Shown here: one piece after another, positions 20,398 to 25,459 of the stretch
Numbering within the stretch: the stretch's first letter is position 1
Layout: each line of letters opens with the position of its first letter
Virus record (IMG/VR): IMGVR_UViG_3300009507_000063
Coordinates: 1 to 32,898 of that record
Length of the DNA stretch: 32,898 bases
Strand: one strand, 5' to 3'
From: a virus
Notes under the pieces: model-generated
Databases searched by the model: none
Told to the model about the DNA's origin: nothing
What the model saw: the letters and a program-made list of their open reading frames with translations, nothing else
Translations under genes and position numbers: made by a program

Positions 20398-20859
20398 TTA
20401 ATGGATAGTATCATCTCTGGGTGGAAATGGTATAACGTTAGTAAGTTTCTTTTCACCGGTGTTATTATCTTTTCTATTTTCTAGAAGCCTCGCCATCGCT
20501 TCTGTGATGCGTTGAAGGCCTTCTATCTTATCTCTCTTATAATCTTCCACGCGTTCCTTTGCAATTGTATAACAGTCTCTAATTGCAACATCATATTGAT
20601 CTACAAGGTAATCACGCGGGCGATTGACTGAAATAATATGATCACTATTAACCATTATGTAATCATTTTCATCTTCTAAAAAATTAATGAATGGTCTAAA
20701 TGCATACATTCTATCACCACCATCATATTCATAATTAATAATTGTCATGGCATTTCTAATAATTAATTGATTATCATCATCAGATGGCCATTCCATAACT
20801 TCACACACGACCTCACTGCCGTTTGATAATTTAAATTGTGCTAGATCTTTTTTTGTCAT
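20398..20859 (-). CDS. Conserved T4-like hypothetical protein (153 aa)
   Basis: ATG at 20859, overlapping the glycosyltransferase stop by 29 bases. The N-terminal half is a run of beta strands starting LAQFKLSNGSEVVCEVMEWP and including NQLIIRNAMTIINY and DYIMVNSDHIISVN. This could be an Sm/SH3-like barrel (impression only). The C-terminal half is a charged helix (IRDCYTIAKERVEDYKRDKIEG). The N-terminal pattern recalls a protein seen in many aquatic T4-like phages. RNA or protein binding is a guess from the fold. It is the last gene before gp55 in the uvsY-uvsW unit. Confidence 0.8.
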   Translation of the reverse strand: MTKKDLAQFKLSNGSEVVCEVMEWPSDDDNQLIIRNAMTIINYEYDGGDRMYAFRPFINFLEDENDYIMVNSDHIISVNRPRDYLVDQYDVAIRDCYTIAKERVEDYKRDKIEGLQRITEAMARLLENRKDNNTGEKKLTNVIPFPPRDDTIH

Positions 20860-21613
20860 TCTCTGTCCAAGGAAATGCTTCAGATGAATTTTGTTTATAA
20901 ATGTCTAACATTGCAAATTTTAAATCAATTGTTTTATTTGCCAGTCTCTTTATATATACTTTCCTAGGGCCCTTTAAATGAGCAAATTTACCAGCAAGTT
21001 TACTTCTTTGAAATGCTTCACTTACTTGCCACTGATCACTACCCGCTGATGTTCTTAATGTCTGCGCAGTATAAGATGTTTCGCTTTTCATCATCTGATA
21101 GACAGCCTGAAACGTACCTATGTCATGCCATGCTTTTAATTTAAACACTTCATTGCTAAAATACATATGTTCCCAATGACACATAAACGTCTTGCACCAC
21201 GGGTGTTTTACATTGAAAGCGATCCACCCATTCTCAGAGTTTTTACCTCCACGATCTAAATATGTAAACAGATCATTACCGTGAGGCAAACGATCATTTA
21301 GCCACTCCTCATTATAGTCTTCTAGTTGCACGACATCACAGTCCATCCACACCACGTGCGTGACATCTGACTGCATTTTATCCATGATGTGTTCTATAAT
21401 TGCTTGTGGTTTGTGAGAGAATTTATCCCACCAGTGATCAAAATGATCGATCATTACTTGTGAGTTGGAATCTCTCCAACGTTGCCACTCAATATGTCTG
21501 CTACCTTTACCCTCTTCATAATGATAGGGTTGATGTTGCCACGTAGATGTAGCGTCTGCACCAAAATCAGCCCACAACGCCTTGTTCCAACATGTAATAA
21601 AGTCTACCTTCAT
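20831..21613 (-). CDS. GT-A fold glycosyltransferase-like protein (260 aa)
   Basis: HVVWMDCDVVQLEDY (residues 86-100) contains the DxD motif (D91, D93) typical of GT-A sugar transferases. GWIAFNVKHPWCKTFMCHWEH and GSDQWQVSEAF resemble acceptor-site segments of GMA12/MNN10-type (GT34-like) enzymes. The substrate is unknown. It overlaps uvsW by 4 bases and the downstream gene by 29, so expression is tied to the recombination genes. It is the second glycosyltransferase-like protein in the window and is unlike the one at 10524. Confidence 0.65.
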   Translation of the reverse strand: MKVDFITCWNKALWADFGADATSTWQHQPYHYEEGKGSRHIEWQRWRDSNSQVMIDHFDHWWDKFSHKPQAIIEHIMDKMQSDVTHVVWMDCDVVQLEDYNEEWLNDRLPHGNDLFTYLDRGGKNSENGWIAFNVKHPWCKTFMCHWEHMYFSNEVFKLKAWHDIGTFQAVYQMMKSETSYTAQTLRTSAGSDQWQVSEAFQRSKLAGKFAHLKGPRKVYIKRLANKTIDLKFAMLDIYKQNSSEAFPWTENDKKRSSTI

Positions 21614-24078: not shown

Positions 24079-24086
24079 TATTTATA
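24079..24086 (-). promoter_or_regulatory. Late promoter TATAAATA upstream of the gp19-family gene
   Basis: An exact T4-type late promoter. Its last A (24079) is taken as position -6, so transcription should start at 24073. It sits immediately after the stop codon of the transporter gene. It should need gp55 and the gp45 clamp. Confidence 0.85.
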
Positions 24087-25019
24087 CTAAGTGAAAGTAT
24101 GAATACCCACAATAATTCCTAAAGATGCACCCACACCAACCATTAATTTACCAAAGTCTTTGGCGATAATCGGATATGCTTTTGCAGGCAGTTTGTTTGC
24201 AAACGTCTGAATTGCCAGTTCACGACCACTCAGCAGACCAATAAACACCCAAGTCGTTGACATCGGAATGTTGTTGTACTGCTTGAAGTAGAACAGAATG
24301 ATCAGGTAAATCAGATCAATCAGTGTCGCACTCTTCACGTATTGTGTGCTAGTCTTTTGTCGCACGATCTGTTGGATCTTACCACCCTGTTCTTGGAACA
24401 TAAACCCAAGACCAGCAACAAACAATGCTGAGATACCGACAAGCAGTTCCGCAGAGATCTCACGAGGCAAGAACACTGCGATGTTTGCCATGTCGTGTGA
24501 CAACCACGTCCACCACAACCACCCAGTAACGACCCACTGTGCGACTCGCCATTGCGTGTCACTACCACCAAGATCAACCTTGCTCATGTACTTGGTGACG
24601 ATTGCCCACAATGCGTATGCACTCACTGCGGCAACACCATATCCTGCAAAGGATTTGACTAGCATTTTCTCTAGTACGAATGTTGAGGCGAATGCTGAGA
24701 GAACGAGAAACGATGTACTTACGGGTACGCCTATGCGGGTGAGTAGCAGAAGAACTGCGGGTGCGGCCGCATGATACCATTGCGGTTCCAGATAAGGAAT
24801 TTTATCTAGTCGTCCATACGATATGTCGCCGTACATTCCCCAACCGTACCAGAGCGCAAACACGAGAACTGTACTCGCACCCGCCCAGAGGTATTGCCAC
24901 TTGACTCGACGATTACTCGCCATCCAAGTACCAAGAGTTTGAATAGAATCGTTCGCAAGAACGGAGTAAGATGCTAGACCGAATCCTAGGATGGTCCAAA
25001 CAAGAGTCATTGTGTCCAT
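24087..25019 (-). CDS. PiT-family-like inorganic phosphate transporter (310 aa)
   Basis: A polytopic membrane protein with about 8-10 hydrophobic segments. The two half-repeats of PiT/Pho4 permeases are visible. LANDSIQTLGTWM (21-33) and SHDMANIAVFLP (174-185) are the two ND-type signatures, and IGVPVSTSFLVLS (96-108) and IPMSTTWVFIG (251-261) the paired P-x-S-T-T helices. It is shorter than many PiT proteins (roughly 400 aa or more), and the motifs differ from the usual GANDVANA. It should move phosphate with Na+ or H+ across the inner membrane. It is coupled (TAATG) to the small outer-membrane-like gene and lies among virion genes. Confidence 0.7.
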   Translation of the reverse strand: MDTMTLVWTILGFGLASYSVLANDSIQTLGTWMASNRRVKWQYLWAGASTVLVFALWYGWGMYGDISYGRLDKIPYLEPQWYHAAAPAVLLLLTRIGVPVSTSFLVLSAFASTFVLEKMLVKSFAGYGVAAVSAYALWAIVTKYMSKVDLGGSDTQWRVAQWVVTGWLWWTWLSHDMANIAVFLPREISAELLVGISALFVAGLGFMFQEQGGKIQQIVRQKTSTQYVKSATLIDLIYLIILFYFKQYNNIPMSTTWVFIGLLSGRELAIQTFANKLPAKAYPIIAKDFGKLMVGVGASLGIIVGIHTFT

Positions 25020-25324
25020 TAGAATGTATACCTTATTTCAGTTTCGAGTTTTTCGCTTTTGTCTTTCAGTTCAAATTTACCTTTGAACACCCAGTTGTTT
25101 TGTTTGAACTTGTAACCAGTCTCCATACTGAACTTATTGTCAGTCATGGTGCCTGCTTCAATGTAGAGATTGTTATCTGCCTTATAACCTATACGCAGAT
25201 GTTCTTGATGGGTGTGACGAACAGTGTTGTCCTCACGTTTGTATTCTATATAGGGATTTGCTAACGCCTTGTGATGGGCATTGATTATCACGAAGAGAAA
25301 TAGAAATCCAATAATCATTTTCAT
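25019..25324 (-). CDS. Small outer-membrane-like beta protein (101 aa)
   Basis: It has a Sec signal peptide (MKMIIGFLFLFVII...ALA, cleavage after residue 22). The mature part is alternating polar/hydrophobic strands (HLRIGYKADNNLYIEAGT, FSMETGYKFKQNNWVFKGKFEL). It ends in EIRYTF, the aromatic-x-Phe C-terminal pattern of Gram-negative outer-membrane barrels. Nearly 80 residues would make a small barrel or half-barrel, perhaps oligomeric. Its stop overlaps the transporter start, so the two are probably a functional pair. A variant late promoter and a 10-bp hairpin over the start codon suggest late expression. Specific function is unknown. Confidence 0.65.
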   Translation of the reverse strand: MKMIIGFLFLFVIINAHHKALANPYIEYKREDNTVRHTHQEHLRIGYKADNNLYIEAGTMTDNKFSMETGYKFKQNNWVFKGKFELKDKSEKLETEIRYTF

Positions 25325-25357
25325 AGTAACACCTGTTATTGCTTTGTTGTTACTATG
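25322..25357 (-). other. Perfect 10-bp inverted repeat occluding the start codon at 25324
   Basis: In the transcript CATAGTAACA (25357-25348) pairs exactly with TGTTACTATG (25331-25322) around a 16-base loop. The 3' arm contains the ATG, and the CAGGTG Shine-Dalgarno straddles the loop edge. The predicted late start at 25352 would remove half of the 5' arm. Confidence 0.6.
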
Positions 25358-25365
25358 TATTTACT
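25358..25365 (-). promoter_or_regulatory. Variant late promoter AGTAAATA
   Basis: AGTAAATA (25365-25358) differs from TATAAATA in two bases and lies at the usual distance before the outer-membrane-like gene. The position next to the hairpin is the same as at 24079. It is weaker evidence than the three exact sites. Confidence 0.45.
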
Positions 25366-25431: not shown

Positions 25432-25459
25432 AAAAAAAAGGGAGACTAAAAGTCTCCCC
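25432..25459 (-). terminator. Rho-independent terminator after gp23
   Basis: On the minus strand GGGAGACT (25458-25451) pairs with AGTCTCCC (25447-25440) around TTT, followed by eight T residues (25439-25432). This is a strong, complete terminator 40 bp after the gp23 stop. It separates the head genes from the transporter operon. Confidence 0.95.

Follow-up and report, generated by a model that had tools for sequence, protein, structure and literature searches.

The window, that is, the whole stretch of 32,898 nucleotides analysed here (IMG/VR record IMGVR_UViG_3300009507_000063), belongs to a marine, T4-like phage. On its minus strand, the genes follow each other in the order gp21, gp22, gp23, a terminator hairpin, the two genes described here, gp19, uvsY and uvsW. 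The first gene of the pair (25019-25324) encodes a small outer-membrane-type protein (OMP) of 101 aa including its signal peptide, with a mature part of about 79 aa and six strands. The second (24087-25019) encodes a protein of 310 aa, assigned by homology as a divergent PiT-type transporter. The two open reading frames have one base in common, in a TAATG stop/start overlap that couples them (25017-25021, minus strand). Upstream, the unit is bounded by the terminator-type hairpin of gp23 with its T run (25432-25458) and, downstream, by the late promoter of gp19, TATAAATA (24079-24086), both on the minus strand. The neighbours are clearly recognizable: gp23 by the Pfam family PF07068 (E 6.5e-148) and the tail tube protein gp19 by phrog_45 of PHROGs (E 1.3e-32). 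An earlier note, made from the sequence alone, had placed a coupled gene pair between the gp23 terminator and gp19, and its coordinates and neighbours are borne out by the reading frames and profile matches. Elsewhere in the window, a 260-aa gene (20831-21613) between uvsW and a 153-aa gene matched neither Pfam nor PHROGs at E below 0.03.

The half-repeat signatures of PiT permeases noted earlier in the 310-aa protein sit at the residues claimed, all encoded on the minus strand. Repeat 1 carries ND at residues 23-24 (24948-24953) and PVSTS at residues 99-103 (24711-24725); repeat 2 carries HDMAN at residues 175-179 (24483-24497), where the canonical motif is NDVAN, and PMSTT at residues 252-256 (24252-24266). 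The ND of repeat 1 aligns with the canonical PiT ND, and the other three motifs are placed by alignment, hhalign and the PDB profile match described below. In an alignment of 60 relatives from viruses and bacteria, N23, D24, P99, S101, T102, H175, D176, N179, P252, S254, T255 and T256 are invariant.

The similarity to known transporters is visible mainly at the level of the family. The window protein scores 15.6 bits against PHO4 (PF01384; E 0.0079), for a gathering cut-off of 33.7 bits, and PHO4 matches 30 of the 60 family members (best E 6.4e-8). No PHROGs or NCBIfam model matches the window protein. A phmmer search of the PDB with this protein alone gave no match, and neither did a 15-row profile; the 60-row profile was required, and its sole match among 177,635 PDB sequences is TmPiT (6L85, E 8.2e-6). 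When the viral proteins are compared with 11 canonical PiT proteins by hhalign, 280 columns align with the four motifs in register (P 0.0016, probability 15.8), the low probability being probably due to the closely knit nature of the family (Neff 2). An AlphaFold model based on 15 sequences only reached a pLDDT of 67, and Foldseek gave no match for it below E 0.1. A Pfam match to Prismane (E 0.18) was rejected as a composition effect. Of the earlier identification as a PiT permease, the relationship therefore stands, on the TmPiT profile match and the collinear motifs, and membership in Pfam PHO4 does not. As judged from its sequence, the protein is well supported as a divergent PiT homologue that falls outside PHO4 by the Pfam cut-off. 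Like canonical members such as TmPiT and E. coli PitA, it is built of two repeats in which the ND and P-x-S-T-[ST] motifs line up; it differs from them by its short length, its sub-threshold Pfam score, a His-Asp that replaces Asn-Asp in repeat 2 and a Gln that replaces Asn in repeat 1.

In the small OMP, residues 1-22 (25259-25324, minus strand) form a predicted Sec signal peptide ending in ..KALA, with a cut at about ALA-NPY before NPYIEY, and the C-terminus reads ..IRYTF. The Sec-type signal and C-terminal Tyr-x-Phe reported for this protein are thus confirmed. Its relatives (35 distinct sequences) share an invariant alternating pattern, in mature numbering Y3 E5 K7, R22 G24 and E34 G36, continued by E46 G48 K50, K59 K61 E63 and E72 R76; this strand alternation lies above that of shuffled sequences (mean z 4.3). 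AlphaFold predicts six antiparallel strands over the 79 residues of the mature protein (pLDDT 93.5). The top-ranked fold match of this model in the PDB is the porin OmpC (prob 0.94, TM 0.57), with a non-significant E of 0.7; other porins, VDAC and a designed transmembrane barrel are also listed with non-significant E-values, which may be expected for a protein of six strands. The Pfam family Phage_OMP (PF24653), an outer-membrane-like beta barrel of cyanophages, matches 23 of the 35 relatives (best E 6.1e-8). Furthermore, the signal peptide, the amphipathic antiparallel strands and the C-terminal aromatic residue are all features looked for in outer-membrane barrels. Six strands are few for a monomeric barrel; hence, an oligomer is likely. 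The outer-membrane nature proposed for the 101-aa protein is upheld by the Phage_OMP relatives, the strand alternation, the six-strand model and the porin-ranked fold match, and its assignment to the beta-barrel type, as modelled, is well supported. Like Phage_OMP, it is phage-encoded, beta-rich and secreted; unlike that family, the window protein itself gives no match to the profile and is tied to phosphate transport genes.

Putative expression signals precede the pair. A late-promoter-like element, AGTAAATA, is located 34 nt upstream of the OMP start (25358-25365, minus strand). It agrees with the T4 late consensus, TATAAATA, at only six of eight positions, whereas gp19 and other genes of the window have TATAAATA at similar distances. 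A hairpin with a 10-bp stem (25322-25357, minus strand) holds the OMP start codon in the read-through RNA (-10.0 kcal/mol, z -2.1), and it cannot form in an RNA that starts at about 25352 (-0.5). In a related viral locus (L190), the stem is retained with one changed pair; in another (L191), a hairpin that is different and stronger (-20.1, z -6.8) encloses TAAATA. In the T4 late genes e, soc and 49, the start site is hidden in early RNA and open in late RNA. The OMP gene resembles these genes in that its start codon would be masked by a hairpin in read-through RNA and a late-type promoter lies in or next to the 5' arm, with the difference that the window hairpin is predicted only, on three related leaders. 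Together with the gene coupling, the hairpin would restrict the OMP and, through it, the transporter to late infection. The late expression suggested by the earlier note is thereby favoured, both by the promoter box upstream of the OMP and by the loss of the start-codon hairpin in RNA from that promoter.

The OMP-PiT pair recurs, with its gene order preserved, in independent contigs of viral origin, at identities down to 35% for the OMP and 59% for the transporter, so the pairing is not due to chance; the linkage is conserved in several phage lineages, in support of the earlier reading. More generally, genes adjacent to viral PiT genes are enriched for signal-peptide proteins (26/81 vs. 110/908, p 1e-5; 61 non-redundant loci, heuristic signal prediction). 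These neighbours include the small OMP, a secreted beta-rich family of 182 aa and, in several viruses, PstS. No relation between the small OMP and the 182-aa family was found by hhalign. A PDB match of the latter to Lef3 (E 0.0039) was considered unreliable, as Lef3 is a baculovirus DNA-binding protein and the query had six rows only. On the contig IMGVR_UViG_3300021425_002479 (L208, 1-4291), a member of the same OMP family is followed by a complete pstS-pstC-pstA-pstB set and, further downstream, by a PRPP synthase, a lipase-like gene and additional families, which are also found after PiT at other loci such as L044 and L088. Different phosphate transporters therefore appear to share one locus behind one OMP family. 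At a further locus (L235), the OMP is followed by pstS.

Other genes were seen at single loci or pairs of loci. A ferredoxin-like gene (CVGCKDTKCVEVCPVDC) follows PiT on two phage contigs (L010:6997-7332 and L011:7028-7363). An alphaproteobacterial-type permuted tmRNA gene lies directly after PiT on a viral-classed contig (L078:1366-1804), indicating either an alphaproteobacterial host or a misclassified contig. Directly before the small OMP, a TonB-dependent-receptor-like gene is present at L213:283-2682 and L221:1443-3848, identified by weak NCBIfam matches.

Many viral PiT genes are preceded by a leader RNA composed of GUGAGC (GTGAGC in the DNA), a 5-bp hairpin with a GGUAAAG loop, AARC and the ribosome-binding site (for example, L041:710-754, L088:7959-8003, L090:3048-3092 and L200:3960-4003). 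The leader is absent from the window, and the start-codon hairpin of the window unit differs from it. All 40 sequences of the alignment form the five-pair stem, and four of its pairs show double-sided changes (27 cells, compared with a mean of 7.2 in shuffles). The T4 late promoter core, TAAATA, is found upstream of 41/70 leaders, against 7.5 in shuffles (maximum 15). When viral contigs were scanned with the DNA pattern alone and the results pooled with the loci already gathered, at least 104 distinct copies were obtained. At least 97 copies with a following reading frame were listed: 87 precede PiT, seven precede members of the two OMP-type families, the small OMP and the 182-aa proteins, and two precede PstS, while the remaining one (L051) stands before a small reading frame 0.4 kb ahead of PiT. 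As some copies come from loci that were fetched by PiT, the PiT share is inflated; the notable point is that, among the matches listed, no other gene class lies behind the leader, which heads only PiT, OMP and pstS transcripts (97/97).

No Rfam family fits this leader. The cis-regulatory RNA freshwater-2 (RF02980), which likewise has two hairpins ahead of the ribosome-binding site, scored 14.4 bits (E 4.2) against a cut-off of 49.9. The leader appears to be undescribed. Of the 80 loci in the bacterial set, 79 lack it as well, the remaining one (L107) resembling a viral contig in a bin, and a search of 197 Pelagibacterales genomes, run with stricter filters and without a positive control, gave no match. 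It is conceivable, if rather doubtful, that uncultured marine phages possess their own phosphate regulon, in which one virus-only leader RNA regulates the non-homologous PiT, two secreted OMP-type families and PstS, possibly as a riboswitch that responds to a nucleotide or to phosphate status.

The claim that the small OMP is dedicated to the transporter had to be abandoned. At most OMP loci no PiT is found nearby, some members are instead paired with pstS, with pstSCAB or with a gene for a TonB-type receptor, and neither OMP type is present in many of the PiT phages. Exclusion is a frequent function of small envelope proteins of phages, and the OMP might accordingly be an exclusion or envelope factor of the outer membrane (blocking superinfection or changing a receptor) that is co-transcribed with PiT and stands outside phosphate uptake. 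Such a role would agree with the lack of PiT anywhere in 12 OMP records of 14-131 kb and with the receptor genes adjoining some OMP genes. However, two unrelated secreted families both occupy the PiT neighbourhood and carry the phosphate-only leader RNA, the OMP also precedes pstS and pstSCAB, and OMP and PiT are adjacent in both larger records found to hold the two, which makes this explanation unlikely.

The transporter is encoded in at least 577 viral stretches and the small OMP in at least 115; neither was found among 50,697 deposited phage records. Bacterial homologues of the transporter, at 56-63% identity, occur in Pelagibacteraceae, Flavobacteriales and other Alphaproteobacteria. In a tree of the family, most viral sequences group in their own clades, with three label changes compared with about 20 in shuffles (the root being arbitrary). 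The gene is therefore old in viruses. The patchy distribution and the many genomic contexts of the pair could also suit a passenger that was inserted among the virion genes and hardly affects the phage cycle. This is very improbable in view of the motif residues kept invariant across 60 homologues, the deep separation of viral from bacterial clades, the number of viral stretches with the transporter and the retention of the coupling and leader elements.

In bacteria, named neighbours lie within three genes at 37 of the 78 PiT loci: a MIP channel (28), an ArsC-like reductase of the LMWP fold (21), a response regulator (9), a histidine kinase (8) and ACR3 (5). The order in Flavobacteriales is regulator-kinase-PiT-ACR3, and the two-component genes are probably PhoB/PhoR, judging by domains and position. 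At L133:7151-8957 and similar Pelagibacteraceae loci, about 190 nt separate the PiT relative from a MIP channel and an ArsC-like gene upstream of it, forming an arsenic/phosphate island. Some PiT relatives move substrates other than phosphate, and the viral permease might carry arsenate, metal-phosphate or sulfate, or export arsenate in arsenic detoxification. The divergence of its sequence below the PHO4 cut-off, the His in place of Asn in the second signature and the adjoining arsC, MIP channel and ACR3 genes of the bacterial homologues would fit such a function. Nevertheless, arsenate enters cells by phosphate importers; arsenic genes are therefore expected beside such an importer, and this context fits a phosphate/arsenate permease. 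Moreover, among the named viral PiT neighbours there is no ars gene and PstS recurs, pstSCAB takes the transporter locus in L208 and PhoB/PhoR-type genes are neighbours in Flavobacteriales. Another substrate is hence improbable, and the phosphate role first proposed is favoured by the pstS and pstSCAB neighbours and substitution, the common leader RNA and the bacterial Pho/ars context.

The best explanation, with a probability of about two in three, is that OMP and PiT form a late-expressed viral unit for phosphate uptake across both membranes; its substrate, direction and pore role are deduced from context, and translation confined to late infection is likewise deduced. The small OMP, a protein of the beta-barrel type with six strands, would insert, probably as an oligomer, into the outer membrane of the host and help phosphate to reach the periplasm. 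The coupled PiT-type permease would then carry it over the inner membrane while phage DNA and virions are produced. The late-type promoter would drive the pair, and the RNA hairpin, which should be missing from late transcripts, would shut the OMP start codon in read-through transcripts.

The DNA of phage progeny contains a large amount of phosphate, a nutrient that can be limiting for marine viruses. The phosphate genes known from viruses are mainly pstS and phoH, with pstS in cyanophages. Furthermore, PHO4 has been described in viruses of marine algae (PMC3429862) and pit in soil phages (PMC10987575). The unit described here has viral phosphate acquisition in common with cyanophage pstS, algal-virus PHO4 and soil-phage pit and differs from them by a PiT relative coupled to a small OMP and located between gp23 and gp19. 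The OMP-PiT pair is a new variant among phage phosphate-acquisition genes. The shared leader RNA, located in relatives and not in the window, is the most novel element: an apparently undescribed leader marks a set of viral phosphate genes. That the PiT relative recurs beside small outer-membrane-type proteins points towards phosphate import through both membranes. Taken with the hundreds of uncultured viruses that carry relatives of the transporter, many of them under the shared leader, the pair suggests that phages supply phosphate-uptake genes of their own in late infection.
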